Below, piece after piece: positions 8,577-55,722 of a stretch of 64,000 nt of DNA (positions are counted from its first letter, which is position 1; each line of letters starts with the position of its first letter). The position numbers were made by a program, and so were the translations under genes. Origin of the DNA: Saccharothrix sp. (lineage in GTDB: Bacteria; Actinomycetota; Actinomycetes; Mycobacteriales; Pseudonocardiaceae); the NCBI RefSeq assembly GCF_031180885.1, contig NZ_JAPSLK010000019.1, positions 1-64,000 of the forward strand, in the 5' to 3' direction. The notes under the pieces are model-generated. The model worked only from the letters and a program-made list of their open reading frames with translations, had not been told where the DNA came from and made no database searches.

Positions 8577-8619
8577 GGCCTCCGGCCCCCGAGTCGATCA
8601 TCTCACGGGATACCGACAA
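8577..8619 (-). promoter_or_regulatory. PafBC/RecA-independent-type promoter motif with GC-box, copy 1
   Basis: On the minus strand TTGTCGGTA (8611-8619) is followed after exactly 8 nt by GATGAT (8597-8602) and then by GGGGGCCGGAGGCC (8577-8590). The first two parts resemble the actinobacterial RecA-independent DNA-damage promoter TTGTCRGTG-N8-TANNNT. It points through the repeat tract toward the MFS-iscS-mnmA operon 600 nt away. Confidence 0.45.
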
Positions 8620-8687
8620 CCCAGGCGGACCGACAGAGGGAAGCGCACCGAGGAGGCACAAAACCGCAGGCAGACCGGCGCGAGAGT

Positions 8688-8763
8688 GGAGCAGCGGCGA
8701 GGGGTGGCTCGGCGAGGTGGAGCGGCGAGGTGGAGCGGCGAGGGGCGGAGCGGCGAGGCAGCA
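8688..8763. repeat. Short GC-rich array of GTGGAGCGGCGAG units
   Basis: Two perfect adjacent copies of the 13-mer GTGGAGCGGCGAG are surrounded by degenerate copies (GGGGCGGAGCGGCGAGG and similar). No coding function is seen. Confidence 0.6.
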
Positions 8764-8855
8764 GAAGCGGAGTGGCCGAGGCCGCGGGAACTGGCAGGGC
8801 GGGGGTGCGTAGGCGACCGCACCCCCGCCGTGGTCTCTAGACGGCCTCAAACGAC

Positions 8856-9737
8856 CTAACGGCCTCGGACGGCCTGCCGCCGCACCCCCCACGGCACGTG
8901 CACCCGCTGCGCCGGCACCTGCACATCCCCGTACAAAGCCCGCTCCGACTCCTGCTGCACCAACTCCGCCAGCTCCCGCCGCCCCGCCGCACGCCCCGGA
9001 GCCACCTCGTCCAGGACGTGCACCTCGACCACCAACCCGCGCAACCGCAGCACCCGCCGCATCGAGTCGACCAACGTGTCCGACCCGATGAACGCCGCCC
9101 CCGTGGTCGTCCGCCCGTCCTGCACGTACCGCAGCACCACCGGCCGAACCGGCACACCGGCATCCAAAGCCGCCTGGAACAACGCCGGCCGGTACCGCCC
9201 CGACGCCATCCCGCACCAAGTGGTCCCCTCCGCATGGATGCCGACCGCAGCACCCGACCGCAAAGCACCCGCCAGCTCGGCCACCGTCCCCGGCAGCAAC
9301 GACAACCGCTCCCGGTCCAGGTACACCGTCCGCGCAGCCGTGATGAGCCACCCCAACACCGGCCACGACCGGATGTCCCGCTTGGCCACCATGCGGATCG
9401 GCTGAACGGCATCGATAGCCAACTCGTCCAACCACGACACGTGGTTGCTCACCACGAGCACCCCGCGCCCCGGCGTCGCCTGGAACACCGGCCCACCAAC
9501 CACCCGCAGCCGAGCACCGAACGCCCGCAGCAAAGCCCGGAACCACGAGCGCAGCAGCACCGAACGCACCCGCCCCCGCGACACCAGCACCGCCGGCACC
9601 ACCAGGACCCCGGTCAACAGCACGACGAGCGCGGCGACCACCCGCAGCACCACGCGGACGACACCGACCCGCGCCGACGAGTGGTCCACGCACCCGTCAC
9701 CGCACGGCGACACCGGCATCCACGGGTGGGCGCTCAC
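8856..9737 (-). CDS. 1-acyl-glycerol-3-phosphate / lyso-lipid acyltransferase (PlsC/OlsA family)
   Basis: 293 residues. An N-terminal membrane segment (about residues 22-45) precedes a PlsC domain with the catalytic NHVSWLDE (NHX4D) near residue 85 and the lysophospholipid-binding EGTTW near residue 160. The GTG at 9737 overlaps the stop of the upstream N-acyltransferase as GTGA, so the two are coupled. In M. tuberculosis the equivalent pair is Rv3026c-Rv3027c. Given an OlsB-like partner, O-acylation of lyso-ornithine lipid (OlsA role) is a reasonable inference, but phosphatidic acid synthesis is also possible. Confidence 0.85.
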   Translation of the reverse strand: MSAHPWMPVSPCGDGCVDHSSARVGVVRVVLRVVAALVVLLTGVLVVPAVLVSRGRVRSVLLRSWFRALLRAFGARLRVVGGPVFQATPGRGVLVVSNHVSWLDELAIDAVQPIRMVAKRDIRSWPVLGWLITAARTVYLDRERLSLLPGTVAELAGALRSGAAVGIHAEGTTWCGMASGRYRPALFQAALDAGVPVRPVVLRYVQDGRTTTGAAFIGSDTLVDSMRRVLRLRGLVVEVHVLDEVAPGRAAGRRELAELVQQESERALYGDVQVPAQRVHVPWGVRRQAVRGR

Positions 9738-10498
9738 GCCGTCTCCCCCAGGAAGAACTTCAGGTACCGCTGGTCCACGTGCTCCATGCCCAGCAGCACG
9801 AACAGGTCCGCCACGCCGAAGTCCGAGTCCAGCGCCGGCCGCCCGCACACCCAGGCCCCCAGCCGCAGATAACCCTTCAGCAGCGGCGGCAGGACGGTCC
9901 GAGCAGGGCGCGCAACAGCGTCCACGTCCCACGGGCGCAGCGGCGTCACCCGGTACTCCTCGGGCGCGTAGTGCTTGGCGTGCACCGTGTCCCACACGCC
10001 CGCCGCGTACGAGCCGCCGTCGTGCAGCGGCACGGAGGCGCAGCCCACCAGCCACGAGTGGCCGGACAGCAGCATGTACCGGGCGATGCCCGCCCACACC
10101 AGCGACACGACGGCGCCGTTGCGGTGGTCGGGATGCACGCAGGAGCGGCCCGTCTCGACCACGCTCGGGCGCAGCCCGGCCAGGTTGGTCAGGTCGAACT
10201 CCGTGTCGGAGTACAGCCGGCCCGCGTCGGCGGCCCGCTCCGGCGGGAGCATCCGGTAGGTGCCGACGATCTCGCCGGTCCGGTCGTCGCGGACCACGAG
10301 GTGGTCGCAGTGCTCGTCGAACTCGTCGACGTCGTGGCCCGCCACGGGCGAGTGGAGGGTGGCGCCCATCTCGCCGGCGAAGACCTGGTGGCGCAGCTTC
10401 TGCGCGGCCACCACCTCGGCGCTGTCGCGTGCGACGAGCAGCGAGTAGCGCGGTCCGGTGGCTTCCCCGGTGCTGACAAGCAGTTGAGGCTGCGTCAT
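9734..10498 (-). CDS. GNAT-type N-acyltransferase, OlsB-like
   Basis: 254 residues. The pattern LRHQVFAGEMGA...GHDVDEFDEHCDHLVV, VGTYRML and VETGRSCVHPDHRNGAV is that of the ornithine-acyl-ACP N-acyltransferase family (OlsB; Pfam acetyltransferase-5 type) rather than ordinary acetyltransferases. OlsB makes lyso-ornithine lipid from ornithine and a hydroxyacyl-ACP, and OlsA then adds the second acyl chain. The gene overlaps a PlsC-family gene, the expected OlsA partner. Rv3027c is the positional equivalent. The product is inferred from family and pairing, not shown. Confidence 0.8.
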   Translation of the reverse strand: MTQPQLLVSTGEATGPRYSLLVARDSAEVVAAQKLRHQVFAGEMGATLHSPVAGHDVDEFDEHCDHLVVRDDRTGEIVGTYRMLPPERAADAGRLYSDTEFDLTNLAGLRPSVVETGRSCVHPDHRNGAVVSLVWAGIARYMLLSGHSWLVGCASVPLHDGGSYAAGVWDTVHAKHYAPEEYRVTPLRPWDVDAVARPARTVLPPLLKGYLRLGAWVCGRPALDSDFGVADLFVLLGMEHVDQRYLKFFLGETA

Positions 10499-10591
10499 GG
10501 GGTCTGGTCTACCGACCGGATGGCGTCCTACAGCAGGTCGTTCCGATGACGCATTAGTGGCAGGTCGGTTAAACCCTGGTGTGGGCGAATA

Positions 10592-10631
10592 GTCCGAGGG
10601 CCGCCCCCAAGATCGGGGACGGCCCTCGGAC
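10592..10631 (-). terminator. Hairpin terminator downstream of etfA
   Basis: Perfect 11-bp stem GTCCGAGGGCC / GGCCCTCGGAC (10592-10602 with 10621-10631). A nested C5/G4 pairing lies inside the 18-nt loop. It lies 16 bp beyond the etfA stop and has no T-tract. Confidence 0.7.
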
Positions 10632-10646
10632 CAAAAGCGCTGGTGA

Positions 10647-11606
10647 TCAGCCCTTGCGCTTGTCGACCTCTTCGGTCAGCTGCGGGGCGACGTTGAACAG
10701 GTCGCCCACGACGCCGAAGTCGGCGATCTCGAAGATCGGCGCCTCCGGGTCCTTGTTGACCGCGACGATCGTCTTGGACGTCTGCATGCCGGCGCGGTGC
10801 TGGATCGCGCCCGAGATGCCCAGCGCGATGTAGAGCTGCGGCGACACGGTCTTGCCGGTCTGGCCGACCTGGAACTGGTGCGGGTAGTAGCCGGAGTCCA
10901 CCGCGGCGCGCGACGCGCCGACGGCCGCGCCCAGGCTGTCCGCCAGCTTCTCGACCACGGCGAAGCTCTCCGCCGAGCCGACGCCGCGGCCACCGGAGAC
11001 GACGACCGACGCCTCGGTCAGCTCCGGGCGGTCGCCGCCCACGACGGCCTCGCGGCCGGTGACCCGGGTCGCCTTGGCCGCGTCGGTGGCGGGCAGCTCC
11101 ACGGCCTCCTCGACGGCGTCGCCTGGGGCCTCCTCGGCCTCCACGCCGCCGGGGCGCACCGCGACGACCGGCGTGCCGTTGGTGACCTTGGACTTCACGA
11201 CGTACGCGCCACCGAAGACGGACTGCGTGCCGACACCCTCGCCGTCCAGGTCGACCACGTCGTAGAGCAGACCGGAGCCCAGGCGCACGGCGAGGCGGCC
11301 CGCGACCTCCTTGCCCTCCAGCGTGGCGGACACCAGCACGGCGGCCGGGGACTTGGCGCCCGCGATCGTCGCCAGGGCGTCGACCTTCGGGGTGACCAGG
11401 AAGTTGGCGGCGTCGTCGGACTCGACCGCGTAGACCTTGGCCGCGCCGTAGCGCGCCAGGGACTCCCTCACCTTGCCCGCGGTGCCGGGCGATCCGACCA
11501 CCACCGCGGACGGCTCGCCGAGACGGCGCGCGGCGGATAGAAGCTCAAAGGTGACCTTCTTGACCTCGCCGTCGACGTGGTCGACGAGGACCAGGACCTC
11601 AGACAT
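10647..11606 (-). CDS. etfA: Electron transfer flavoprotein alpha subunit
   Basis: 319 residues. EtfA binds FAD and, with EtfB, carries electrons from acyl-CoA dehydrogenases to ETF-quinone oxidoreductase. The C-terminal FAD domain is clear ([20 protein letters not shown], then AIQHRAGM, near residues 245-275). A well-spaced AGGAGGGAACAA precedes the ATG. It is the second gene of the etfBA operon, 17 bp after etfB, as in Rv3029c-Rv3028c (fixA-fixB). Confidence 0.95.
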
Positions 11607-11623
11607 TTGTTCCCTCCTCGCCT

Positions 11624-12406
11624 TCAGATGAGCTTCTGGCCGACCAGGTACTCGGCGATCTTCCGACCGCCGTCACCCGAGTCCTCGACGCGCTGACCGG
11701 CGCTGCGCGGCGGCTTCGGGGCCGCCTCCAGCACCTTGGACCACGCGGCGGAAAGACCGACCTCGCCCGCGTCCAGCCCGAGGTCGCTCACGGTGAGCGT
11801 GGTCACGGGCTTCTTCTTCGCCGCCATGATGCCCTTGAAGGACGGGTACCGCGGCTCGTTGATCTTCTCGGTCACCGAGACGACGGCGGGCAGGCTCGCC
11901 TCCAGGTGCGCCACGCCCTCGTCGGTCTCGCGCTCGGCCTTGATGGTGCCGCCCTCGACCGTCAGCTTGCGGACCTGGGTGACCTGCGGCAGGCCCAGCA
12001 GCTCGGCCAGGATGGCGGGCACGGCGCCCGCGCGGCCGTCGGTGGCCTCGTTGCCCGCGATGACCAGGTCGAAGCCCTCGACCGTGCCGATGGCCTTGGC
12101 CAGCACCTTGGCGGTGGTCAGCACGTCGGAGCCGTGCAGGGCCTCGTCGGAGACGTGGACGGCTTTGTCCGCACCCATCGACAGCGCCTTGCGGATCGCG
12201 TCGGTGGCCCGGTCGGGACCCATCGCCACGACGGTCACCTCGCCGCCGTGCGCCTCCTGGAGCAGCAGCGCTTCCTCCACCGCGCGCTCGTTGATCTCGT
12301 CGAGCACGGCGTCCGCGGACTCGCGGTCGAGGGTGTGGTCGGCGTCGGTGAGCTTGCGCTCGGACCAGGTGTCGGGCACCTGCTTGACCAGGACGACAAT
12401 GTTCAT
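11624..12406 (-). CDS. etfB: Electron transfer flavoprotein beta subunit
   Basis: 260 residues, usual length. EtfB binds AMP and forms the dimer with EtfA. Family features are MNIVVLVKQVPDTWSERKL at the N-terminus, the signature LVIAGNEATDGRAGAVPAI near residue 115, and the LPAVVSVTEKINEPRYPS region near residue 170. A GAGGA Shine-Dalgarno lies 6 nt before the ATG. It is first in the operon; a possible TetR-type operator lies at 12542-12557. Confidence 0.95.
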   Translation of the reverse strand: MNIVVLVKQVPDTWSERKLTDADHTLDRESADAVLDEINERAVEEALLLQEAHGGEVTVVAMGPDRATDAIRKALSMGADKAVHVSDEALHGSDVLTTAKVLAKAIGTVEGFDLVIAGNEATDGRAGAVPAILAELLGLPQVTQVRKLTVEGGTIKAERETDEGVAHLEASLPAVVSVTEKINEPRYPSFKGIMAAKKKPVTTLTVSDLGLDAGEVGLSAAWSKVLEAAPKPPRSAGQRVEDSGDGGRKIAEYLVGQKLI

Positions 12407-12691
12407 GGGTCCTCTTCGACCTCCTGCGGACGGGGCGGCGACGGATCAGGCGACGCTTTTCGCGTGCGATCCGGGTGTTACCAGATGTGGTGACCCTGCC
12501 ATGTCCTCGCCGCGTTGGCATGGTGGTGTCGGCCACCCGTATGTTACCCACCAGTAGCAGGGGTGCAAACGACAGCAAGCGCCTGTGCCGCGTGACGATG
12601 GACACAAGGGCCTTTGGGCCCAATCGGTTGGCATCGTACGGCCTGGTGGCGGCGTTACAGCCCCTCCCCCTACTGGGCTAGGGTCGGAACA
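12407..12691. promoter_or_regulatory. Divergent etfB / degV promoter region with FadR-like half-site motif
   Basis: 285-bp spacer. GTTACCCACCAGTAGC at 12542-12557 closely matches CTACCCGCCAGTAACC at 16252-16267 ahead of the methyltransferase gene, suggesting one regulator sees both. The form TTACC-N-AGTAG resembles TetR-family fatty-acid regulators' sites in actinobacteria; this is inference. On the degV side TTACAG (12655-12660), an 18-nt spacer and TAGGGT (12679-12684) form a promoter that would start transcription at or one base before the degV ATG. Confidence 0.4.
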
Positions 12692-13534
12692 ATGATCCGC
12701 CGGGTAGCGATCGTCACGGACTCCACCGCGTGCCTCCCGCCGCAGTTGACCGAGAAGCTCGGCATCACCGTCGCACAGATCCAGGTCCGCATCGGCGACT
12801 GGGTGGACGACGAGGCGCGCGTGCCCGTGCCCAAGCTGGTGGACGCCCTGCGCGACTCGGTCGAGGTGGCGACCTCCCCGCCCGACCCGGGCGCGTTCTT
12901 CTGGGCCTACGCCGACGCCGCGGCCGCCGGGGTGGAGGCGATCGTGTCGCTGCACGTCTCCACCGGGCTGTCGCAGACCGTGGAGATGGCGCGGCAGGCG
13001 GCCGGGCAGGTGGCGGTGCCGGTGCACGTCGTGGACACCCGGACGTGCGGCATGTCGCTGGGGTACGCGGTCGTGGCGGCGGCCACCGTGGCGTCGGCCG
13101 GCGGTGACGTGCAGCGGGTGCTCTCAGCGGCGCAGCACAGCTTCCACCGCAGCACCGAGCTGATCTACGTGGACACCCTGGAGTACCTGCGGCGCGGCGG
13201 CCGGATCGGCGCGGCGGCGGCCCTGCTCGGGTCGGCGCTGTCCATGAAGCCGCTGCTGACCATGGTGGACGGTCGGATCGCGCCGCTGGACAAGGTGCTC
13301 GGGACGGAACGGGCGGTGCGCAAGCTGGTGGACCTCGCGGTCAAGCGGGCCGGTGACGCGCCGGTGGACATCGCCGTGGAGCACTTCGACGCGCGGGAAC
13401 GGGCCGAGTCGGTGCTGGAGCAGTTGCGGACGAAGCTGCCGAACCTGCGGCGGTTCCTGGTGACCCAGGTCAGCTCGGCCATCGGGGCGCACGTGGGTCC
13501 GGGGGCCCTGGGCGTGACCGTTTCGCCGGTCTAG
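12692..13534 (+). CDS. DegV family fatty-acid-binding protein
   Basis: 280 residues. The DegV/EDD fold binds a fatty acid, and in Firmicutes the family (FakB) presents it to fatty-acid kinase. Visible features are IVTDSTACLPPQ at the N-terminus, SLHVSTGLSQT near residue 95, YVDTLEYLRRGGRIG near residue 165 and GPGALGV at the C-terminus. The ATG at 12692 lies 7 nt downstream of TAGGGT, so a leaderless start is likely; a longer upstream frame lacks homology. No FakA-like kinase is in the window. It lies divergent from etfBA. Confidence 0.9.
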   Translation: MIRRVAIVTDSTACLPPQLTEKLGITVAQIQVRIGDWVDDEARVPVPKLVDALRDSVEVATSPPDPGAFFWAYADAAAAGVEAIVSLHVSTGLSQTVEMARQAAGQVAVPVHVVDTRTCGMSLGYAVVAAATVASAGGDVQRVLSAAQHSFHRSTELIYVDTLEYLRRGGRIGAAAALLGSALSMKPLLTMVDGRIAPLDKVLGTERAVRKLVDLAVKRAGDAPVDIAVEHFDARERAESVLEQLRTKLPNLRRFLVTQVSSAIGAHVGPGALGVTVSPV

Positions 13535-13583
13535 GAACCCGCGGCTGCGTTTGCCCGTTGGCTGGACAGGGAAGGTGATGGTC

Positions 13584-13742
13584 ATGGCATCGCTGTTCAG
13601 CAAGATCAGTGCGTTCGCCCGCAGCCCGCAGGGGCGGCGGCTCACCGAGCAGATCAAGCACGCGGCCCGCGACCCGCGCACCAAGGCCAAGGCGCAGGAA
13701 CTGCTCCGCAAGTTCCGCGGCAAGCGGCCCGGGCACCACTAG
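13584..13742 (+). CDS. Small basic protein, unknown
   Basis: 52 residues, rich in Lys/Arg, probably one amphipathic helical unit (MASLFSKISAFARSPQGRR at the start; RKFRGKRPGHH at the end). GGAAGG at 13570-13575 is spaced 8 nt from the ATG at 13584, which favours this start over the ATG at 13578. Small proteins of this composition recur in actinobacteria without known function. It is co-directional with degV, 49 bp after it. Confidence 0.7.
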   Translation: MASLFSKISAFARSPQGRRLTEQIKHAARDPRTKAKAQELLRKFRGKRPGHH

Positions 13743-13756
13743 CCCGGGGTGCGGGA

Positions 13757-14383
13757 CTAGGTGCTCGTGCGCTTGCGGACTTCCTCGAAGCTGCGCAGGT
13801 AGCGCTGCCGGAACTCGCTGGGATCCGGCAGGTGGACCGGCTGGGCGGGCACGTCGGCGACCGGCTCCGGTTCCACCTGTTCGGGTAGCTCGACCACCAC
13901 GGGTTCCGGCTGCGCGGGCACTTCCGCTACGCGCTCGGGCTCCGGGCACTCGACCACGACCGGTTCCGGCTGCGCGGGCACCTCGACCACGACCGGCTCC
14001 GGCGCGACTTCGGGCTCCGCGGCCCCGGGCTCGGGCGCGATCTCCGGCTCAGCGGCCTCGGGTTCGGGCTCAGCGGCCTCGGGTTCGGGGTCGTCCAGGG
14101 TCGGTTCGAGTTCGGGGACCAGGGTGAGCGCCGGGCGCGACGGCTCGGCCGGGCGCTCGGTCACCGGCAGGCCCATCACCGGGTTGCGGTGGATGGGTTT
14201 GGTCGCGTAGTCCTCCGGCGGCCACACCACGTCGAGCTTCAACTCGACCGGCGGCGCCTCCGGAGCCGGTGCGGGCGGTCGCTCCGGCTCCGGCTCGCGT
14301 CTGAGCATGTACGCCGTCAGCACGCAGCCCGCCGCGAACGACAAGGCGCACAACCCGAACACCAACGCGACCGCACCGGACAT
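13757..14383 (-). CDS. Membrane-anchored Pro/Glu-rich protein
   Basis: 208 residues. One N-terminal membrane helix (about residues 5-25) is followed by an acidic, proline-rich region with repeats of the type VPAQPEPVVVE (three variants) and PEPEAAEPE. The C-terminus ends in a short basic segment. This architecture suits a spacer reaching across the cell wall or a scaffold; no enzyme domain is seen. It is the last gene of a three-gene operon, 7 bp after the OmpA-like gene. Confidence 0.75.
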   Translation of the reverse strand: MSGAVALVFGLCALSFAAGCVLTAYMLRREPEPERPPAPAPEAPPVELKLDVVWPPEDYATKPIHRNPVMGLPVTERPAEPSRPALTLVPELEPTLDDPEPEAAEPEPEAAEPEIAPEPGAAEPEVAPEPVVVEVPAQPEPVVVECPEPERVAEVPAQPEPVVVELPEQVEPEPVADVPAQPVHLPDPSEFRQRYLRSFEEVRKRTST

Positions 14384-14390
14384 ATCGCTC

Positions 14391-14966
14391 CTACCCGACG
14401 AGCACGTCGACTTGCGGACCAGCCTCGGACGGCGGCCCCCACACCGGGTCCACCACGACCTGCGTGCTGATCGCCTCCGCCGGCACCCCGCGGGCGACCA
14501 GGTAGTCCCGCACGAGCAGCGCCCGCCGCATCGCGAGCACGTCGCAGCGGTGCGAGGTGGTCTCGCCGTTCCACGCGTGCGCCACCAACGTCACGACCGC
14601 GCCGGGCACGCCGCCCAGCAGGTTGCCCACCCCGGTCTGCACGGCCTCGCCGCGTCCGATGTGGTCGGTGGTGCCGGGCGCGAACGTGATGCCCTTGACC
14701 GCGTTGCTCGCGAACAGGCTCGCCACGTTCTGGCGCGCCACCTCCGGAGAAGGCGGCGGTGCGACGACCTCGGGCGTGGCCGTCGGCCGGGACGGGATGG
14801 GCAGCTTCGAGGGCGGTCTGACCAGGTGGCTCGACGGCACGGCCGAGGAGGTGAACGGCAGCGCGCCGGTGATCTCGTCGCCGTACACGGTGAACCCGAA
14901 CGCGGTGACGGCCGTCGGGACGAGCACCCCGGCGACCACCAGCGGCAGGACCGGGCGACGGGCCAT
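14391..14966 (-). CDS. OmpA-like peptidoglycan-binding-type envelope protein
   Basis: 191 residues: an N-terminal signal anchor (about residues 5-25), a Ser/Pro-rich linker, and a C-terminal domain with the OmpA/MotB pattern GITFAPGTTDHIGRGEAVQT, then LVAHAWN and AMRRALLVRDYLVARGVP. OmpA-like domains bind diaminopimelate in peptidoglycan; the Asp/Arg pair of the classic motif is only partly kept, so binding is not certain. Its ATG overlaps the stop of the coiled-coil gene upstream (TGATG). Confidence 0.75.
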   Translation of the reverse strand: MARRPVLPLVVAGVLVPTAVTAFGFTVYGDEITGALPFTSSAVPSSHLVRPPSKLPIPSRPTATPEVVAPPPSPEVARQNVASLFASNAVKGITFAPGTTDHIGRGEAVQTGVGNLLGGVPGAVVTLVAHAWNGETTSHRCDVLAMRRALLVRDYLVARGVPAEAISTQVVVDPVWGPPSEAGPQVDVLVG

Positions 14967-15967: not shown

Positions 15968-16285
15968 AGCCGCCCCACTCGCTTGAAGATTCACCAGAGG
16001 ATACCCAGCGCGTGAGTGCCCAACCAGCGCGTTAGCGGGCCAGTCGAGAGCGGCCGGCGCAGTGTTGTGCGCACACCACGCAGCGCAAATATTCCAGTCA
16101 AAGATCAACAGATCGCGGCCTCGCGTCACCCGATGGTGTCATTTCGGGTTTGAAGCGCAACTTTTCGACAATGCGCGCACGACACGGCATCCGGTAATCA
16201 GATCCCGAGTGCTTAACCCGAAATAGTGACACTCGAACGGCGAGCCGATGGCTACCCGCCAGTAACCAGCGACTACGCTGGCCGG
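15968..16285. promoter_or_regulatory. Divergent promoter region with long-spaced inverted repeat
   Basis: 318 bp of lower GC than the genes around it, between the DivIVA-like gene and the Rv3030-like methyltransferase. GTGTCATTTCGGGTT (16136-16150) and AACCCGAAATAGTGACAC (16215-16232) form an inverted repeat with a 2-base bulge, separated by 64 nt. Such spacing fits a DNA-looping operator pair. CTACCCGCCAGTAACC at 16252-16267 resembles the site upstream of etfB. TACGCT at 16274-16279 is the likely -10. Confidence 0.45.
16274..16279 (+). promoter_or_regulatory. -10 hexamer TACGCT for leaderless methyltransferase gene
   Basis: TACGCT stands 6 nt ahead of the GTG at 16286, with no Shine-Dalgarno between them. 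This supports the GTG over the upstream ATG at 16226, whose extra 20 residues have no family resemblance. Confidence 0.4.
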
Positions 16286-20657: not shown

Positions 20658-20658
20658 G

Positions 20659-26204: not shown

Positions 26205-26249
26205 GCTACCCTCGCCGCTCTGTCCGATCGCCGCTCCTTCGTCGCGGCG

Positions 26250-26349
26250 GCGAGGTCGCCTGGCAGTCGGCGGGTCGCGCCTGATTCCGCGGTGATCGAA
26301 AAGCGTGATCACCGCGACATGAGCCCCGACCCACCGACGCGACCTCGCG
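26250..26349. repeat. 100-bp palindromic element, copy B
   Basis: Core hairpin CGCGGTGATC / GATCACCGCG (26288-26297 with 26307-26316), loop of 9. The outer arms GCGAGGTCGC plus GTCGGCGGGTCG pair with CGACCCACCGAC plus GCGACCTCGC (26250-26277 with 26328-26349). The overall plan and flanking sequence match copy A, but the central stem differs, as if stems vary while arms are kept. Confidence 0.75.
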
Positions 26350-26418
26350 CGCGGACAGTCTTCCATTGCCGCCCTCCGCGGCAGGACGAGAGGTCCGGTC
26401 CGGGTCGCCATCCCCACT

Positions 26419-26441
26419 TTGTCGGTGGTCCCTGGGAAGAT
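26419..26441 (+). promoter_or_regulatory. PafBC/RecA-independent-type promoter motif ahead of glgX, copy 2
   Basis: TTGTCGGTG (26419-26427), 8 nt, then GAAGAT (26436-26441). The glgX ATG follows 7 nt later, so the transcript would be leaderless. This is the only copy in the window placed directly ahead of a gene. GGGGGC from the GC-box is present but the rest is replaced by the glgX start. Confidence 0.5.
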
Positions 26442-26448: not shown

Positions 26449-28569
<2,121 letters not shown>

Positions 28570-29180
28570 CCAGCTAAAACGGGTGGGCGCGGCAATCACC
28601 CGATCGAGCGACATACAGAATCCGCGACCAACCCACCCCCCACACGTCCCGAGATATGGAGGAACCCGCGGGCCGGCCCCACACCCACAGCCCCCACCAC
28701 CCACCCACCCGCCGCCCCCGCCAACCGCCCCAGCCCCGGCTCCCGGCCACCCGCCACGCCTCCGGGCCACCCGCCCGCCGCAGCCGCAGGCCCGCCGCAG
28801 CCGCACCGCGCGCCCTAAACCCACCTTCGCGCACCCCCTGCCGCATGCCGGCACCGCAGCCCGCCGCCTGCCCACCCGCCACCGCACACCCGCCAGCCGC
28901 CGCATGCCCGCCGCCACGCGCAAGCCGCACGCCGCACGCCGCCGCTAAGCGCCCGTCACCGCACGACCACGGCCGCACGCAAGCCCCGCCGCGTGCCTGT
29001 CACCGCCCCACCCCCCGCCACACACCCACCACCACACGCGAGCCGCCACACGCCCGCTGCCGTGCCGAGCGCCCCCGTTGCGGGCGGTGATCGGCAACTG
29101 CCCGCGAGTGAGGGCCGGGGGCGCAGCGGTGTGTCTGGAGCCGAGGGAATCTTGGCTGGTGGGAGCGGGTGCGGCCATCC
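28570..29180. other. Gene-free low-complexity CG-rich tract
   Basis: About 600 bp. From 28640 to about 29060 the plus strand is dominated by C-rich pentamers and hexamers (CCACCC, CGCACGC, GCCGC), giving long open frames with Pro/His/Arg-rich or Gly-rich products that look like base-bias artefacts. No Shine-Dalgarno, family motif or good hairpin was found. From about 29060 composition returns to normal toward the cysteine dioxygenase leader. Confidence 0.65.
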
Positions 29181-31501: not shown

Positions 31502-31794
31502 CCCAACCCGCACGACCTGACGCCACACCACCGCACCGCGCTGGGCCTCACCGGACGGGGCCGCGCAGCCCCGCCAGCGGCACGAAGCCAGGCGACACCA
31601 CGCCGAGCCACACCACGCCGGACCGAGTCGCGGGGACTGCATCGAGTCGCGCCCCGCCAAGCCGGCCACGCCGAGGCCGGGCTGGCCGGGCCGTGGCGCG
31701 CCGAGCCACGCCGGGGCGCGCCGAGCCAGGTCAAGCCGCGTCGAGCCAGGTCAGGCCGCGCCACGCCACGCGGGGCGGGCCGGGCCAAGCCGGG

Positions 31795-31880
31795 TCCGCG
31801 CCACGCCACGCCACGCCGCGCCACGCCACGCCGCGCCACGCCACGCCGCGCCACGCCGCGCCGGGCCAGCCGCGCCACGC
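31795..31880. repeat. Tandem array of CGCGCCACGCCACGC-type units
   Basis: A 15-bp unit, CGCGCCACGCCACGC, repeats about three times with 5-bp and 10-bp variants, all built of CACGC and CGCGC pentamers. On the minus strand it reads as Ala-Trp-Arg-Gly repeats, a base-composition effect rather than a known protein. Confidence 0.8.
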
Positions 31881-31930
31881 CGCGCCGCGCCGGGCATGCC
31901 GGGCCGCGCGTCGCCGAGCCGAGCCGGGCC

Positions 31931-31966
31931 GGGGCCGGGGCCGGGGCCGGGGCCGGGGCCGGGGCC
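31931..31966. repeat. (GGGGCC)6 hexanucleotide repeat
   Basis: Six perfect GGGGCC units, with partial units on both sides. Four or more G4 runs at 2-nt spacing can form a G-quadruplex on the plus strand. On the minus strand the tract reads as Gly-Pro dipeptides in one frame. Confidence 0.9.
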
Positions 31967-32016
31967 GACCGTGCGGCACCAAGCCTCACCGGCCATGGGG
32001 CCGGCCACAGGGGCCG

Positions 32017-32059
32017 GCCTCCGGCCCCCGGTTTCCATTCTCCCACCCGGGTACGACAA
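32017..32059 (-). promoter_or_regulatory. PafBC/RecA-independent-type promoter motif with GC-box, copy 3
   Basis: On the minus strand TTGTCGTAC (32051-32059) is followed after 8 nt by GAGAAT (32037-32042), then GGGGGCCGGAGGCC. TTGTCGTAC departs from the consensus in its last three bases. It reads into the GGGGCC and pentamer arrays. An ATG overlaps the -10-like hexamer, so it cannot be the start of a transcript made from it. Confidence 0.4.
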
Positions 32060-32315
32060 TTTCCGGCGTGCGGGGAATGGGGAATGCGAATGGGGATGGG
32101 CCGGGGACGGCGCGTGTCCCCGGCCCCCGCGCCCCGGTCCTGCACAAGCCGACCGGTCCACCTGACATTACTCACAAATTGCGGGTACGGGGTGAACTAT
32201 CGCCCGGAGGAGTGGCGCGCAAAGGTTCCGCTCACATATCGCGAGCGGTGTACGAGCGCTCCGTCCGCATTGGCCGCCGATGCGCGGTGATCATCGGGTG
32301 ACGCCGGCCGCGGGA

Positions 32316-46254: not shown

Positions 46255-46262
46255 CCAGCGGG

Positions 46263-47815: not shown

Positions 47816-47833
47816 GTAAAGATTGTTTACGAT
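47813..47833. promoter_or_regulatory. Palindromic operator-like site ATCGTAAA-N5-TTTACGAT
   Basis: Perfect 8-bp arms with a 5-bp spacer (47813-47820 and 47826-47833), in AT-rich DNA just upstream of the broken F5/8C gene. This is the form of a dimeric repressor site for a carbohydrate-utilisation gene. It now lies between a pseudogene and the start region of the metallopeptidase gene. Confidence 0.55.
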
Positions 47834-47929
47834 CGGCAGGTTAACGGGCGCTGAACAGGGGTGTCAACGGGGCGACCGGGAAGTGCCGTAACCGGCCCCT
47901 TAGGGGTGCGGAGGCGGCACAATGGGCAG

Positions 47930-49303: not shown

Positions 49304-49686
49304 GACGCGCGTGCGCTGAGCGCTTTCAAGATCAAAAGCTTGAAAGATCAAAGATCAAAAGCTACAAACGGCGCTCGCCGCGCGGCAGGCCCCCGGGGGT
49401 GGAAGGGCGTCGGTTCGTCCCCCGTACGGCCTGCCGGAGGCAACCACCCTTTTGGTCTTCTCCGCCAGCGGTGAAGCGTGCTTGCGGAGAAGACCAAAGC
49501 GTGGTTGGGCTGCGCCCAGGCCGTACGGGGGACGAACCGAGGCCCTTCCTGTGGCTTGGCAGCCCTGGGCGCGCCTGCGGCGCGGAATGCGGCGGCTGTG
49601 GGGTGGTGGTTGGTGTGGTTCCGCCACGGTGGAGTGGGGTCGTTAAGTAGGGTTCGGGCGGACGGCTCGGTGGTTCGGCTCGGTGG
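49304..49686. other. Intergenic region with GATCAAA direct repeats and long palindrome
   Basis: 383 bp between the two paralogous peptidase genes. 49325-49370 holds repeated GATCAAA units; 49401-49549 is a large inverted repeat. From 49560 to 49680 no feature beyond the next promoter is seen. No coding region with homology was found. Confidence 0.65.
49401..49549. repeat. 149-bp imperfect palindrome
   Basis: The left arm starts GGAAGGGCGTCGGTTCGTCC and includes CCCGTACGGCCTG; the right arm carries its reverse complement with one mismatch in 33 bp. After an unpaired patch the inner arm TTGGTCTTCTCCGC (left) pairs with GCGGAGAAGACCAA (right) around a loop of about 18 nt. Arms are about 65 bp each. 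It could serve as a terminator for copy 1, but it is much larger than needed, so a mobile or dispersed palindromic element is likely. Confidence 0.8.
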
Positions 49687-51138
49687 ATGGGGCGTGGCAT
49701 GGCTCGACGGGTGGTGGGGGTTGCGGCGCTCGTCCTGGTCTCGGCGTTGACCAGCGCGTGCACGCAGGCGGTGGACGGGCTCGCCAAGGCGGTGCAGCCC
49801 GACGTCACCAAGGTCTCCGGGCTGGAGATCACCACCGGGGAGAGCGGCCCCAAGCCCGGCGTGCCCGACGCCGACCTCCGGGTCGAGAACGCCGACGGCG
49901 GCGAGATGGACCGGCTCGCGATCAACACCCTCGCCGACGTCTCGGAGTACTGGACCGAGAAGATGCCCGAGCACTTCGACGGCAAGAAGTTCGAGCCGGT
50001 GAAGCGCCTGGTGTCCTACGACTCGACCGGCGCGGGCGTGGAGATCTGCCGGACCAACACCGCCGGTGTCGCGAACGCGTTCTACTGCTCGCTGGACGAC
50101 AGCATCGCCTGGGACCGCGGCGACCTGCTGCCCATGCTGGACGACGCGTTCGGCCCGATGTCCGTGGTGACCGTGCTGGCGCACGAGATGGGCCACGCCG
50201 TGCAGTACAAGCTCGGCGCGCAGGGCGGGGTCAACCAGGCCACCCCGTCGATCATCAAGGAGCAGCAGGCGGACTGCTACGCGGGCAACTTCTTCCGCTG
50301 GGTCGCGGAGGGCAAGTCCAAGCACTTCCGCATCTCCACCGGTCCCGGCCTGAACCAGGTCCTCGCGACCATGTTCTTCATCCGCGACGCGGCGGGCACG
50401 TCCGCCGAGAAGCAGGGTGCGCACGGCAGCGCGTTCGACCGGGTGGCGGCCTTCCAGTTCGGTTTCGCGGGCGACCCGAAGCGGTGCGCGGAGATCGACG
50501 AGCAGGAGATCAAGGACCGCATCACCCAGCAGAAGTTCGACGCCCAGGACGTGGACACCGGCCAGGGCAAGGGCAACCTGAAGGTCGACGACCGCAAGTA
50601 CCTGCAACTGCTGGAGGAAAGCCTCCGCGAGGCCTTCAAGCAGAGCGGCGCGACCCCGCCGACCTTCAAGCAGGGCGACGTCGCCTGCACCGACGCCAAG
50701 GTGACCTCGCCGGCCACCTACTGCCCGGCCACCAACACCGTCGGCATCGACCTGCAGGACCTGGTCAAGATCGGCACCCCGCCCAAGCGCGGCCAGAAGG
50801 GCGGGATCGGCGACTTCGCGGCCTTCGCCGAGATCGCCTCGCGCTTCGCGCTGTCCATCCAGAAGGCCACCGGCTACCCGTTGGAGGGCCCGGCGGCGGG
50901 GCTGCGCACGGCGTGCCTGACCGGGGCGTGGGCGGGCACGACCACGGACCAGAAGGCCAAGCTCCGGCTGTCCTCGGGCGATCTGGACGAGGCGGTGGCG
51001 GAGCTGCTGGCCGACCGGAGCCTGATCGCCGCCGACGTCAACGGCACCGTGGTGCCCTCCGGTTTCGCCCGCGTCGAGGCGTTCCGGGACGGCTTCTTCG
51101 ACGGCAGCGGGCTCTGCACCCGGAAGTACTCCGGGTGA
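49687..51138 (+). CDS. Neutral zinc metallopeptidase lipoprotein (YpfJ family), copy 2
   Basis: 483 residues (471 from the MARR Met at 49699). Lipobox LTSAC near residue 25. The zinc motif is in VVTVLAHEMGHAVQYKLG, followed by KEQQADCYAGNFFRWVAEGK. Later Cys-rich sequence (VACTDAKVTSPATYCPATNT) again marks a second, HEXXH-free half. It shares many blocks with the preceding gene (AIAWDRAALLP versus SIAWDRGDLLP; AHGNAFDRVSAFQ versus AHGSAFDRVAAFQ), so the pair arose by tandem duplication. Substrates unknown. Confidence 0.85.
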   Translation: MGRGMARRVVGVAALVLVSALTSACTQAVDGLAKAVQPDVTKVSGLEITTGESGPKPGVPDADLRVENADGGEMDRLAINTLADVSEYWTEKMPEHFDGKKFEPVKRLVSYDSTGAGVEICRTNTAGVANAFYCSLDDSIAWDRGDLLPMLDDAFGPMSVVTVLAHEMGHAVQYKLGAQGGVNQATPSIIKEQQADCYAGNFFRWVAEGKSKHFRISTGPGLNQVLATMFFIRDAAGTSAEKQGAHGSAFDRVAAFQFGFAGDPKRCAEIDEQEIKDRITQQKFDAQDVDTGQGKGNLKVDDRKYLQLLEESLREAFKQSGATPPTFKQGDVACTDAKVTSPATYCPATNTVGIDLQDLVKIGTPPKRGQKGGIGDFAAFAEIASRFALSIQKATGYPLEGPAAGLRTACLTGAWAGTTTDQKAKLRLSSGDLDEAVAELLADRSLIAADVNGTVVPSGFARVEAFRDGFFDGSGLCTRKYSG

Positions 51139-51140
51139 CC

Positions 51141-51171
51141 CCGTAGGCGCTCCGGGTGGGAGCGCCTACGG
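51141..51171. terminator. Bidirectional hairpin terminator
   Basis: Perfect 13-bp stem CCGTAGGCGCTCC / GGAGCGCCTACGG (51141-51153 with 51159-51171), 5-nt loop, between convergent genes ending at 51138 and 51181. Confidence 0.8.
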
Positions 51172-51180
51172 CCCCAGGCG

Positions 51181-52149
51181 TCAGTAGAGGGCGCTGGCGA
51201 GGGAGCGGCGAGCCGCGGAAACGCGCTGGTCGTCGGCGGGGAACAGCTCGAACAGGCCCACCAGGTGCTCGCGGACCCGGTCCCGGTCGTCGCCGTAGAC
51301 GCGCCGGACGGTGTCGATGAGCCGCTTGAACGCGGCCTCGACGTCCTGGGTGGCCAGTTCGACGTCGGCCGCGGCCAGTTGGGCGTCGAGGTCGTCCGGG
51401 TTGGCGTCGGCCTTGGCCACCGCGTCCGGGCTCAGGCTCTCCGCGCGGGCGGTGAAGCGGACCTGGGCGAGGGCGGCCTTGGCGTCGGCGTTGCCGGGTT
51501 CGGTCGCCAGGATCGCCTCGTACGCGGCCTCGGCGGCGGCGAAGTCGCCCCGTTCGAACGCGTCCTCGGCGGCGGTGAACCGCTCGTCCTCGGGCTCCGC
51601 GACCGGCTCACCCGCCGCGCCCCGGTTGGCCTCGGCGGCGCGGATGCCGGGCAGGCGGTCGCGCAGGGCGTCCAGCAGGCGGTTGATCCACTTGGTGAAC
51701 TCGGCTTCGGGCAGCGGACCGGCGAACGCGTCCACCGGCTGCCCGGCGGCGACGGCGACCACGGTCGGCACCGACTGCACGCCGAACACCTGGCCGACGC
51801 GCGGGCTCACGTCGAGGTCGACCCGGGCGAGCAGCCACGCGCCACCGGCCGCGCGGGCGGCCTTCTCCAAGATCGGCGACAGCTGACCCGCCTCGGGGCT
51901 CCAGGACGCGGTCAGCTCGACCACGACCGGGACCTCCAGCGAGCGCTCCACGACCGACTGGAACGTCGCCTCGGTGACGTCGAGCACCCACGGGCTGGGC
52001 CCCTCGGCGGCCGGACCACCGGCGGCGGGGGGCGGTGTGGCGGCGCGCTGGCGGGCGGCGTCGGCCCGGGCCTTCAGCGCGCCGAGGTCGACCGCCCCGG
52101 AGAGCGCGGCGGACAGTGCAGCGGACTTGCGAGGGTCTGGCCTTGTCAC
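51181..52149 (-). CDS. Thioredoxin-fold protein with TPR tail (CnoX/YbbN-like), Rv1324-like
   Basis: 322 residues: a thioredoxin domain (about 60-165; [36 protein letters not shown]) and a C-terminal TPR-like region (about 190-320; [20 protein letters not shown]). Chaperedoxin CnoX has this plan and guards proteins from over-oxidation. Here the active-site CXXC is missing: the position reads W-S-P-E-A, so it cannot act as a dithiol reductase and probably only binds clients. The GTG at 52149 is favoured by homology. Rv1324 lies near glgB in M. tuberculosis, as here. Confidence 0.85.
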
Positions 52150-52218
52150 GCTCCCATCCTGGCACGGCACCGGCCGGTCGCGACGGCAGCCCGGCCGGAC
52201 GCGCCCGGGCGTCCCTCG

Positions 52219-53064
52219 TCACCCCGCGATCTGGGCGACCGGGTCGATCGCCATCGGGTTGGTCCGCATGGCGTCGTTCTGCCGGCCCAGCGCCAGCGCG
52301 AGTGGTGTCATCAGCTCCAGGAACCGGGCCGTGCCCTCCTCGCCGAGCGCCTGCCACGGGTGCCGGGCGGCCGCGTCGGTCCGGCGCTCGACTTCCTCCC
52401 GGAGGGTGCGCCCGGCCGGCGTGAGCCCGCGGTCGAAGAGCCCGCGCTCGGTCAGGGACCGCTCCGCCTGTGCCCACTCCTCCTCGGACCATCCGCGCGC
52501 CTGCCGCAGGTAGGAGCCCTCCAATCCCTTGTCCGCGCCGAACAGCACGAGCGTTTCGCACGGGGTGAGGTCGGCCGCCACCAGGGCCGCGACGTGCCCG
52601 TCCCCGCGTGACTCGCGCAAGGTCGTGCACGCCTGCCACAACTTCAGGTGCGGCTCGTCGGGCACCGGGAGCGCCGCGTTGGCCGCTCCCAGCACCCGCC
52701 CGGCCACCGGCGCGGCAGCCGCCGCCCGGACCGCGAGGTCGGCCGCCTCCGCCACGTCCAGGGTCGGCAGCATCCGCCGCAACGCCCCGTCCACGCCCTC
52801 CAGCCGTGCCGCCAGGAAGCGCTCCGGCGGGGCGACCTCCCACGCGTCGGGCAGCGCACGCGCCACCATCCGCGGGTGGAAGCTGTAGAACGCGGCCGTC
52901 ACGGTCTGCGGCGCCGCGGCGCCGAGCGGTGCCGCGCGCATGGCGAAGTAGCCCATCCAGCCGCCCTTGCAGCCCAGCGCGTCGGTCACCGCGCGGGACT
53001 CCGGCGTGAAGTACGTGACGTCGTGGTACGGCTCGAAGCGCAGCCACAGGGCGCGAGGGTCCAT
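52219..53064 (-). CDS. SCO6745-family protein (SalK-like, winged-helix tail)
   Basis: 281 residues. The N-terminus RALWLRFEPYHDVTYFTPES with later GWMGYFAMRAAPLG is typical of the SCO6745/SalK group. The C-terminal about 110 residues look like a MarR-type helix-turn-helix (LTERGLFDRGLTPAGRTLRE). Function is unproven; some members sit by antibiotic or aromatic gene clusters. A near-perfect 18-bp palindrome lies just upstream (53075-53092), so the gene is probably under a TetR-type repressor or autoregulated. Confidence 0.8.
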   Translation of the reverse strand: MDPRALWLRFEPYHDVTYFTPESRAVTDALGCKGGWMGYFAMRAAPLGAAAPQTVTAAFYSFHPRMVARALPDAWEVAPPERFLAARLEGVDGALRRMLPTLDVAEAADLAVRAAAAAPVAGRVLGAANAALPVPDEPHLKLWQACTTLRESRGDGHVAALVAADLTPCETLVLFGADKGLEGSYLRQARGWSEEEWAQAERSLTERGLFDRGLTPAGRTLREEVERRTDAAARHPWQALGEEGTARFLELMTPLALALGRQNDAMRTNPMAIDPVAQIAG

Positions 53065-53074
53065 GCCGACAAAT

Positions 53075-53092
53075 TAGTAGGACGTCCGACTA
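53075..53092. promoter_or_regulatory. 18-bp operator-like palindrome TAGTAGGACGTCCGACTA
   Basis: TAGTAGGAC|GTCCGACTA has one mismatch between half-sites. It starts 11 bp upstream of the SCO6745-family ATG and overlaps the stop codon of the thiamine-binding gene. The form AGGACGTCCT is a common TetR-family operator core. Confidence 0.6.
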
Positions 53093-53392
53093 TTCGGAAG
53101 GGTTGAGGTGCTGCTCGATCCGGTCGACCTTGGCGGTCAGCTGCCCGGTGTACCCCGGTCGGATGTCGGCCTTGAGCACGAGGCCGACCCGCGGCGCCGT
53201 GGCCTGCACGACCTCGGTCGCCTTCTTCACCACCGCCATCACCTCGTCCCACTCGCCCTCGACCAGCGTGAACATCGCGTTGGTCTGGTTGGGCAGCCCG
53301 GACTCCCGGACCACCCGCACCGCCTCCGCGACGGCCGCGGCCACGCTGTCGGACTCCCCGCCGAGCGGGCTGACGCTGAACGCGACGAGCAC
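53090..53392 (-). CDS. MTH1187-family thiamine-binding protein
   Basis: 100 residues. Ferredoxin-like fold of the YkoF/MTH1187 family, which binds thiamine or its pyrimidine. Seen: [20 protein letters not shown] at the N-terminus, a central [17 protein letters not shown], and the C-terminal [20 protein letters not shown]. The GTG at 53392 has AGGAGGG about 5 nt upstream, and longer frames lack homology. It is divergent from the MarR gene with 43 bp between starts. Confidence 0.85.
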
Positions 53393-53423
53393 AGTTCCCT
53401 CCTCTTGGTCGGGTACCCACTGG

Positions 53424-53429
53424 TAGCTT
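53424..53429 (+). promoter_or_regulatory. -10 hexamer TAGCTT for leaderless marR
   Basis: TAGCTT ends 6 nt before the ATG at 53436, with no Shine-Dalgarno, so initiation is probably leaderless. Confidence 0.4.
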
Positions 53430-53435
53430 CGGCGC

Positions 53436-53939
53436 ATGACGTCCCAACCGCTGCCGTTCGACCCCATCGCGCGCGCCGCCGAGCTGTGGGAGAAGCGGAT
53501 CGGACCGTCGACGGCGATGGCGGCGGTCACGAGCGTCATGCGAGTACAGCAGATCATCCAGTCCTCGGTGGACTCCGCCCTCAAACCGCACGGTCTGACC
53601 TTCGCCCGGTTCGAGGCGCTGGTGCTGCTGACGTTCTCGCGCACCGGCAGCCTGCCCATGCGGGTGATGGGCGAGCGGCTCCAGCTGCACCCGACCAGCG
53701 TGACCAACATCGTGGACCGCCTGGAGGCCGACGGCCTGGTCCGCCGCAACCCGCACCCGACCGACCGGCGGACGACCCTGGTGGAGATCACCGAGGCCGG
53801 TCACGCGCGGCGGGAGGCGGCGACGGAGGCGGTGACCGAGGTCGAGTTCGGCCTGCGCGGGCTGACCGACCGGCAGACCGAGCAGCTGACCGACCTGCTC
53901 GCCAAGGTCCGCCGCGCGGTCGGCGACTTCAAGGACTGA
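53436..53939 (+). CDS. MarR family transcriptional regulator
   Basis: 167 residues, one winged-helix MarR domain: [20 protein letters not shown], recognition helix [20 protein letters not shown], and wing [20 protein letters not shown]. It probably represses itself or the divergent thiamine-binding gene. Ligand unknown. Confidence 0.9.
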
Positions 53940-54009
53940 TCCGCTCGACGCGGTGTTCGAGGGCTAATCCGCTCGACCGGAACCTGGCCAGTCGGCCACG
54001 CTGTGCGCC

Positions 54010-55047
54010 GTGCGAACCGTAGTCGCCTTGGTGACCGTGGGTGGCCGGCACGTGGGGACCCTGCCGGAGTTCACCGTGGCGAGCCCGTGGTGGAACGACG
54101 TCGAGCCGGTGACCGCGCACCTCGACCGGGTGCTGGGCGTGCCGACGAGCGTGCTGCGGCTGGTGTCCGCGAGGGGTTCGGGGATGCGCGGCGGGACGGT
54201 GAGCTACCAGGTCGAGGCGTCCGAGCCGGTCGCTTTGTCCACTGTGGACCCGGTGGAGTTCCCGGATGACTTGTTGCGGATGCCGTGGGCGCGACCGGGT
54301 GGGCCGGCGGCGCTGGTGGAGTGGGCGGACGGGCACGTGCGGCGGGTCGAGCCGGCGGTGCAGGTGAAGACGTGGAACCTGTCGTGCCTGTACCGGTTGC
54401 GCACCAGGGCGGGGGTGGTGTGGGCGAAGGAGGTCCCGCCGTTCCCGGCGCCCGAGGGGCCGGTGATCGAACTGGTGCGGTCGGTCGACCCGTCGCTGGT
54501 GCCGGGCGTGCCGGCGGCCGAGGGCAGGAGGATCCTGCTGGAGGACGTGCCCGGGACGGACTGCTGGTCACCGAGTGCGGAGATGATCGAACACATGGTC
54601 CCCCGCTGGGTCGCCGTGCAACACGCCCTGGCGGGATTTTTCCCGCCGGTCCGGTTGCGGCGTCGCGGGGTGACGGTGCCGTCGTTCGGCCTGCCGGACT
54701 CGTTGCTGCACGGTGACTTCCACCCGGGCAACTGGCGGTCGAGCGGGGTCGTGCTGGACTGGGGCGAGGCGCACTGGGGTCACCCGGCACTGGACGCGGC
54801 CAAGCTGGTCGACTTCGTCGGCCCGGACCTGGGGCCGCTGGTCGAGCGCGTCTGGTGCGAGGCGTGGCTGAGGCACTGCCCGGACAGCGACCCGTGGAGC
54901 GCCCTGAGGCAGGGTCGACCGGCGGCACACCTGCTGGGGGCGGAGGTGTACCAGGAGTTCCTCGACAACATCGAGGAGAGCGAGCGCGTGTACCACCGGG
55001 GTGACCCGGAGGAGCAGTTGGCGCTGGCTCAGTCTTTCGCGGTCTGA
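54010..55047 (+). CDS. Aminoglycoside-phosphotransferase-fold protein
   Basis: 345 residues. An N-terminal region of about 120 residues with NUDIX-like or unrelated beta sequence (TVASPWWNDVEPVTAHLDRV) precedes an APH-type kinase domain with SLLHGDFHPGNWRSSGVVLD and WGEAHWGHPALDAAKLVDFV (catalytic Asp and metal Asp, near residues 235-255). Such proteins phosphorylate small hydroxylated molecules; substrate unknown. The GTG at 54010 lies 7 nt after CACGCT. Its 3' end overlaps the convergent DUF3817 gene by 19 bp. Confidence 0.75.
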   Translation: MRTVVALVTVGGRHVGTLPEFTVASPWWNDVEPVTAHLDRVLGVPTSVLRLVSARGSGMRGGTVSYQVEASEPVALSTVDPVEFPDDLLRMPWARPGGPAALVEWADGHVRRVEPAVQVKTWNLSCLYRLRTRAGVVWAKEVPPFPAPEGPVIELVRSVDPSLVPGVPAAEGRRILLEDVPGTDCWSPSAEMIEHMVPRWVAVQHALAGFFPPVRLRRRGVTVPSFGLPDSLLHGDFHPGNWRSSGVVLDWGEAHWGHPALDAAKLVDFVGPDLGPLVERVWCEAWLRHCPDSDPWSALRQGRPAAHLLGAEVYQEFLDNIEESERVYHRGDPEEQLALAQSFAV

Positions 55048-55367
55048 ACCTCGGTCTGAACGTCGTCGTCGAGCTTCCCGTTCTTCGCGGCCCAGCGCTC
55101 GAAGATCACGGTGCCGAACGGCGGGATGCCGGCGACGAGGGCCCAGATGGTGGTGGCCTTGTTCCAGCGGTGGGCGAGCATGAGGGTGACGAGCACGTAG
55201 CCGACGAAGACGACCCCGTGGATCGGGCCGAAGATCTTCACGCCGACTTCGTTCTCGACGACGACGTACTTGAAGAACATGCCGATCAGCAGACCGGCCC
55301 AGGACACGGCCTCGGCGAGCGCGAAGAGGCGGAAACGGCCAACGGGGCTGCTAAGCATGTCACCCAT
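55029..55367 (-). CDS. DUF3817 membrane protein
   Basis: 112 residues with about three transmembrane helices. The motif RLFALAEAVSWAGLLIGMFF, then FGPIHGVVFVGYVLVTLMLA and FGTVIFERW, marks DUF3817 (as in Rv1342c). Function unknown. Either the ATG at 55367 or that at 55358 may be used. Confidence 0.85.
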   Translation of the reverse strand: MGDMLSSPVGRFRLFALAEAVSWAGLLIGMFFKYVVVENEVGVKIFGPIHGVVFVGYVLVTLMLAHRWNKATTIWALVAGIPPFGTVIFERWAAKNGKLDDDVQTEVQTAKD

Positions 55368-55408
55368 TGTGGTGAGTGATCCCGGTCACCTGTCCGTTGG
55401 GTCCGTTT

Positions 55409-55451
55409 TTGTCGGTGGTCGCTGGGAAAATGGTGATCGGGGGCCGGCGGC
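55409..55451 (+). promoter_or_regulatory. PafBC/RecA-independent-type promoter motif with GC-box, copy 4
   Basis: TTGTCGGTG (55409-55417), 8 nt, GAAAAT (55426-55431), then GGGGGCCGGCGGCC (55438-55451). It points into the low-complexity tract. Confidence 0.45.
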
Positions 55452-55679
55452 CGGCGCTCGGTGGTTCGCGGTTCTCGGCGGGCGGCGGGCGGTTTGCCGG
55501 CGGACGGCCGGGGGCGGGCAACGACGGCGGGCAGTGGCGCGGGCGGCCGGGCGGCGGCAGGCAGCAGCGGCGGGGCAGCCGGCAGCGGCGACAACTGCGG
55601 CGGGTGGCACCGATCGGCGGCGGCGCGCGGCGAGTGAGTGGTGGCGGCGGGTTTGCCCAGGTGAGACGTGTGTGTGGTT

Positions 55680-55722
55680 GGCCTCCGGCCCCCGTCTCCA
55701 TTGTCCCATGAGCCACCGACAA
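55680..55722 (-). promoter_or_regulatory. PafBC/RecA-independent-type promoter motif with GC-box, copy 5
   Basis: On the minus strand TTGTCGGTG (55714-55722), 8 nt, GACAAT (55700-55705), then GGGGGCCGGAGGCC. It faces copy 4. Confidence 0.45.

Follow-up and report, generated by a model that had tools for sequence, protein, structure and literature searches.

The window, that is, the whole 64-kb stretch of Saccharothrix DNA analysed here, contains five matches to TTGTCGGTG-N8-GANNAT, and our scan recovered all of them on the strands and at the coordinates reported by the first-pass annotation of this DNA. Three of them carry no mismatch (26419, 55409 and 55700), one carries a single mismatch (8597) and one carries three (32037); when up to 3 mismatches are allowed, the 64 kb hold 46 matches for 9 expected. 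Four of the sites are indeed followed by a 14-bp GC-box (8577-8590, 32016-32029 and 55680-55693 on the minus strand and, with one change, 55439-55452 on the plus strand), but the distance is 6 or 7 nt and not the 6-8 nt initially described. The features discussed below are the following, copies being of the B unit type defined later in the text and G016 being the closest relative, from the same genus.

8051-8825, no strand: low-complexity tract around copy 1 (window tract scan)
8577-8619, minus strand: B copy 1, TTGTCGGTATCCCGTGAGATGAT, 6 nt, GGGGGCCGGAGGCC; 27 of 27 conserved positions
26419-26441, plus strand: motif match that is not a family member, in the promoter region of a glgX-like gene (ATG at 26449)
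31576-32075, no strand: low-complexity tract beside copy 2 (window tract scan)
32016-32059, minus strand: B copy 2, TAC type, 7-nt spacing; 27 of 27 conserved positions
55401-55675, no strand: low-complexity tract between copies 3 and 4 (window tract scan)
55409-55452, plus strand: B copy 3, GC-box GGGGGCCGGCGGCC, 7-nt spacing; 26 of 27 conserved positions
55409-55770, no strand: stretch with copies 3 and 4 and their low-complexity middle; G016 has 3 bp instead
55680-55722, minus strand: B copy 4, facing copy 3; 27 of 27 conserved positions

A fuzzy scan of the window retrieved only these four family copies, with 26-27 of the 27 conserved positions, the next best sequence reaching 19. The site at 26419, previously counted as a fifth copy, lacks the GC-box and lies outside the repeat family.

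The first-pass annotation had proposed a dispersed unit, and had called for a genome-wide count against a control and for a search of relatives. In the genome to which the window belongs (G000, 9.46 Mb in 125 contigs), we found 98 copies of the composite of motif and GC-box (45 + 53) and none of the same pattern read backwards, while the motif without the box requirement gave 158 matches for 6 in the control. This indicates that the composite is a dispersed repeat rather than the product of chance, as had been anticipated. The unit is about 48 bp long and reads GGAA-TTGTCG-N11-GANNAT-GGANNC-GGGGGCCGGAGGCC. In an alignment of 93 copies, conservation sets in about 5 bases ahead of TTGTCG, extends through the GC-box and stops at about position 48. 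Twenty-seven positions are nearly fixed (1-6, 16, 18, 19, 22, 23, 25 and 29-43) and 16 are variable (7-15, 17, 20, 21, 24 and 26-28).

Units also occur in tandem with a spacing of 47-49 bp, in arrays of the form A(n)-B, where one to three A units, with a GAGCCCCAGGGGGCGCTC-like second half, precede a B unit with GGGGGCCGGAGGCC. Among the loci centred on copies and 14 array loci, a script identified 21 arrays (12 AB, 5 AAB, 1 AAAB, 2 AA and 1 BB), so that 18 of the 21 follow the A(n)B order; concerning the exceptions, the BB array has an A-like first unit, and in both AA arrays a third unit follows that is degenerate or masked by N. The unit contains a dyad, TTGTC-N12-GACAA, that is paired in 85-100% of the copies, with one-sided changes only. 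No compensatory change was found in the dyad of the B unit and the four B copies of the window have no fold excess (z 0.15, -1.38, 0.51 and -0.49), and we rejected a stable hairpin of this unit. For three A units, DNA folding yielded z values of -0.13, -2.05 and -2.84. Finally, Rfam returned nothing at gathering level for the window, and 8 matches for eight repeat loci, all below the gathering score and 6 of them to microRNA models.

The search of relatives was positive inside the genus and negative outside it. Out of 60 genomes (25 Saccharothrix including G000, and 35 others), the loose composite pattern is present in eight, with 98 copies in G000, 41 in G016, 17 in G009, 7 in G010, 6 in G006, 5 in G015 and one each in G023 and G005; the single G005 match, which has an odd spacing, is likely due to chance. 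The composite is absent from all 35 relatives of other genera. The strict A-unit pattern was detected in 5 of the 60 genomes (15 in G000, 2 in G016 and one each in G006, G010 and G015). In a larger sample of 397 genomes of the order, six of them Saccharothrix, the strict pattern is present in two, both Saccharothrix, and in none of the 391 genomes of other genera. The repeat is confined to part of the genus Saccharothrix, i.e. to a clade. A contig scan with the loose pattern returned at least 82 stretches; among the matches listed, five come from named Saccharothrix, and the rest, from other taxa, we take as chance as a group rather than after inspection of each. The idea that the copies are chance matches in GC-rich low-complexity DNA can invoke the GC-box alone, which is not over-represented in the 64 kb (4 for 6.3 expected at up to 2 mismatches). 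However, the 98 copies against none in the reversed control, together with the empty result in the 391 genomes, make this explanation practically negligible. We also considered a phage or plasmid origin and rejected it, as the strict pattern had no match in viral contigs and positions 55404-55727 had no plasmid match.

The loci occupied differ among carriers. The copies examined in G009, G006, G010, G015 and G023 mostly lie at loci non-homologous to those of G000 and G016, although for a small number of intergenic regions the genomes seem to have the locus in common (L407 with L024, L422 with L069). With G016, 35 of the 98 copies could be compared with flanks present on both sides: the element is kept at 19 sites and absent at 16, proportions that do not represent a random sample because the G016 DNA was chosen by exact match (38 stretches) or by synteny (20 stretches). 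In the window, the orthologous G016 site of copy 1 is without element, whereas copy 2 is common to both genomes and differs at one conserved position. The GH4 gene (L010) offers a broader view: two elements flank a repeat tract in G000, G016 has one, and 22 of the 24 congeners have none, G019 having given no reading. Mobility of the repeat thus appears well supported by these comparisons of sequences.

Where both genomes have the element (19 sites), the paired copies disagree in 7 of 513 cells at conserved positions and in 71 of 304 at variable ones, bearing in mind that the search itself imposed 18 of the 27 conserved positions in the exact-match group, which makes up most of the sample. The positions left free by the search are equally constant (94-98 of the 98 copies of G000 and 38-41 of the 41 of G016), and on reading the eight free positions (16, 25, 29 and 39-43) across the 19 pairs only 1 of 152 differs. 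This suggests that something reads the sequence of the repeat, or that the copies keep one another uniform. Moreover, random pairs of G000 and G016 copies differ at 7.0 of the 16 variable positions and orthologous pairs at 3.7, indicating that most shared copies go back to a single insertion and have since drifted at certain positions only. The contrast between stable and drifting positions is the same at intergenic and in-gene copies.

Such strong conservation at fixed old sites exceeds what a passive selfish repeat would predict, and it also fits a site selected by the host. The copies could then be dispersed binding sites of a nucleoid, segregation, repair or regulatory protein, tolerated within genes since only DNA binding would matter, and the clade would have evolved the site with its protein. 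The constancy of the 27 positions next to diverging neighbours, in genes as well as between them, and the dyad with its one-sided changes are in accordance with this proposal. However, 16 of the 35 compared sites differ between close relatives, units form tandem A(n)B arrays, and genomes of the carrier clade have anything between 1 and 98 copies, so we regard host selection as an unlikely account.

We then consider the gene context, for which coding calls were made with our own coding-potential script. Eighteen of the 98 copies lie inside genes (8 along and 10 against the direction of the gene) and four at edges of a contig or locus. The 76 intergenic copies with both neighbours are distributed between convergent (35), divergent (3) and tandem genes (38, 21 along and 17 against), and the next gene has the same direction in 24 cases and the opposite one in 52. 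This placement, independent of the neighbouring genes, indicates that the copies have not spread as promoters of these genes would. Length differences from G016 are divisible by three in 11 of 12 in-gene rows and in 9 of 23 intergenic rows, two of the 12 representing a single GH4 site, the sole exception (L095) being possibly outside a gene, and L006 being counted as intergenic even though a SpoIIE frame spans its element. The unit itself is largely free of stop codons: all six frames are open in 50 of the 98 units, five in 34 and four in 14. Pfam-supported frames run across the element in NRPS-type (L003, L025, L090 and L104), PKS (L016 and L346), SbcC-like (L107), DEAD helicase (L005), LuxR-type (L009) and SpoIIE (L006) genes, and one NRPS frame contains three elements, one of which is a four-unit array. 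In the GH4 gene, the frame stays open across the elements and both GH4 Pfam domains were found. Separately, the L089 NRPS translation has about 13 RD dipeptides near the end of its frame, an in-frame low-complexity expansion with no element beside it.

The annotation had interpreted the unit as a PafBC-type DNA-damage promoter. The published motif, as excerpts of its source give it, is tTGTCRgtg-8nt-TannnT (PMC5656591), and many copies of the repeat do share with it the TTGTCGGTG half and the 8-nt spacing. However, the repeat has GANNAT in place of TAnnnT throughout the family, a conserved 14-bp GC-box and insertion polymorphism, and no link with gene starts: the 76 intergenic copies are not, as a set, placed upstream of them and pointing at them. 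Regular sites of the TTGTCRGTG-N8-TANNNT form constitute a separate set, with 15 in G000, 14 in G016, 14 in G009, 15 in G001, 11 in G006 and 12 in G018 for 0 in the controls, and two of these genomes, G001 and G018, have no composite repeat. Since this set exists with or without the repeat, the genus possesses PafBC-type promoters of the usual kind, and the repeat is a different thing. Together with the copies inside reading frames, whose orientation like that of the others does not track genes, and with a conservation extending through the GC-box, the altered -10 led us to abandon the promoter interpretation, which we consider highly improbable.

The excluded site at 26419 may be a different matter. 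There, 22 of 25 loci have TGGRARGAT ahead of the glgX-like gene. Only G000 and G016 show the complete TTGTCGGTG, and its GTCGGTG core is found in six more loci, which suggests that part of the -35-like sequence may be real at this gene. We also observed a hairpin upstream of glgX (26225-26365, z -4.4; matches were sought for 26250-26354), of which about 100 bp recur, among the matches listed, at dozens of places in the genus with about 80-86% identity. With a loop (GAAAAGCGT) similar to that of the family described next, this hairpin may be an older branch of it.

Several copies of G009 are followed by a small hairpin and a large one of about 107 bp. The large hairpins make up a second repeat family, which has 26 members in G000, 65 in G016, 53 in G006, 44 in G010, 40 in G023, 23 in G009, 19 in G015 and one in G019, and none in the other 52 of the 60 genomes, a distribution nearly identical to that of the 48-bp repeat. 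Two length classes of it display both-sided changes at 16 and 17 of 29 pairs. For 7 of the 17 strict G009 copies, the hairpin starts 140-225 bp after the first base of the element; in G000, the hairpins of the examined loci do not adjoin the element, except for an interrupted one at L012. Large hairpins were accordingly rejected as a part of the element, this being true for some G009 copies only. The hairpins behind the G009 copies nevertheless leave some room for a noncoding-RNA role of the repeat: the unit could be a promoter with the first bases of a structured RNA, many copies of G000 being decayed or truncated. The shared clade distribution and paired changes of the hairpins are compatible with this possibility, as is the similar extended -10-like sequence at glgX. 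Against it stand the separation of hairpin and element in G000, the four window copies without fold excess and the copies lying inside genes in both orientations, and we judge it quite improbable.

Some further hairpins deserve description. Positions 49401-49549 of the window form a very long hairpin of the second clade-specific family, with 33-bp outer arms and a z of -13.9; among its relatives (at L391, L392, L402, L404 and L408, and at places in G006, G015 and G009) the terminal loop is conserved and the two arms both vary from copy to copy. In G009 (L396) as in G000 (L012), sequence of one kind (CAATGCCGCTAAG...) breaks the large hairpin at about the same place, and at L396 a transposase-like reading frame follows.

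Low-complexity DNA does adjoin the copies, as had been noted, but the description of a purely downstream tail could not be retained: in G000, six-mer diversity is lowered on both sides of the element, from about -250 to +450. The same holds for G016 and for G006, G015 and G010, while in G009 low complexity is mainly upstream. The window has eight low-complexity tracts; the four copies lie in three of them, including the two strongest, and five have no copy. Element and tract are both present in G000 and both absent in G016 at L003, L009 and L019, and G016 has tracts without element at L017 and L021. In the region of copy 1, the element-free tract of G016 measures 160 bp versus 724 bp in G000. 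The relation between element and tract is an association only, and the element-free tracts do not support a dependence of the tract on the element. A long C-rich intergenic tract without copy (28376-29075) lies right after the glgX-like gene.

Taken together, the four sites of the window are probably copies of a clade-specific, small interspersed DNA repeat that is mobile by undescribed means and whose conserved positions are still read. The unit would be, or have been, non-autonomous and moved by an enzyme acting in trans. In-gene copies would survive because a unit of 48 bp adds 16 codons and seldom brings in a stop. What still reads the conserved positions would be a protein, ongoing movement or conversion between copies, and slippage or repair might lengthen and shorten the adjoining low-complexity DNA. 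On this view, the resemblance to a PafBC promoter would be a coincidence or a remnant.

In open-licence papers, we found no earlier description of such a repeat in Saccharothrix, which seems to be a small element, mobile or recognised by a protein, of an undescribed kind. According to the excerpted literature, Rickettsia palindromic elements (RPE) are short repeats found in intergenic DNA and also, in frame, within unrelated genes (PMC10969869, PMC3733652), working genes of Rickettsia being affected at high frequency (PMC10969869). The Saccharothrix repeat shares both locations, and its in-frame insertions into genes have empty sites in relatives, so it is nearest to RPE in behaviour. It differs from them by its phylum, its size (about 48 versus about 150 bp), its A(n)-B arrays and the absence of fold excess, no stable palindrome being found in the B copies of the window (z from -1.38 to 0.51). 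MIRU elements are also actinobacterial, roughly 50-100 bp long, and both dispersed and tandem. The repeat is like them in these traits, but it also resides inside genes, in loops and linkers, and has two unit types in a fixed order. REP/RAYT systems and MITEs resemble it in their many short, non-coding, clade-specific copies and in insertion polymorphism; the B unit, however, has no stable palindrome. None of the six genomes that have at least five copies encodes a Y1 transposase (PF01797), which was found in 5 of the 25 Saccharothrix genomes, including G023, a carrier of one copy; REP/RAYT was rejected for want of this transposase in the main carriers. Neither terminal inverted repeats nor target-site duplications were recognised by eye at the sites compared between G000 and G016.

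A bolder version is possible, though we would not expect it to hold: the 48 bp would be an actively recognised element of an undescribed class, nicked, copied or converted by a trans-acting factor of the clade, which would keep the 27 positions uniform, move the units, extend them in tandem into A(n)-B arrays and destabilise the adjoining DNA. If so, the element would generate intergenic low-complexity DNA and disordered in-frame linkers in large enzymes such as NRPSs. As a probable mobile repeat, it already extends in-frame repeat insertion to actinomycetes, inside NRPS and PKS genes and with empty sites in close relatives, and offers an origin that can be tested for new disordered protein segments and for low-complexity DNA. 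It also warns against inferring promoters from resemblance to a short motif.

Finally, four contigs of the draft genome (C11, C14, C80 and C84) have a repeat copy within about 280 bases of their start (in the first 310 bases), and one repeat array (L332) runs into N, so that low-complexity tracts seem to break the assembly.
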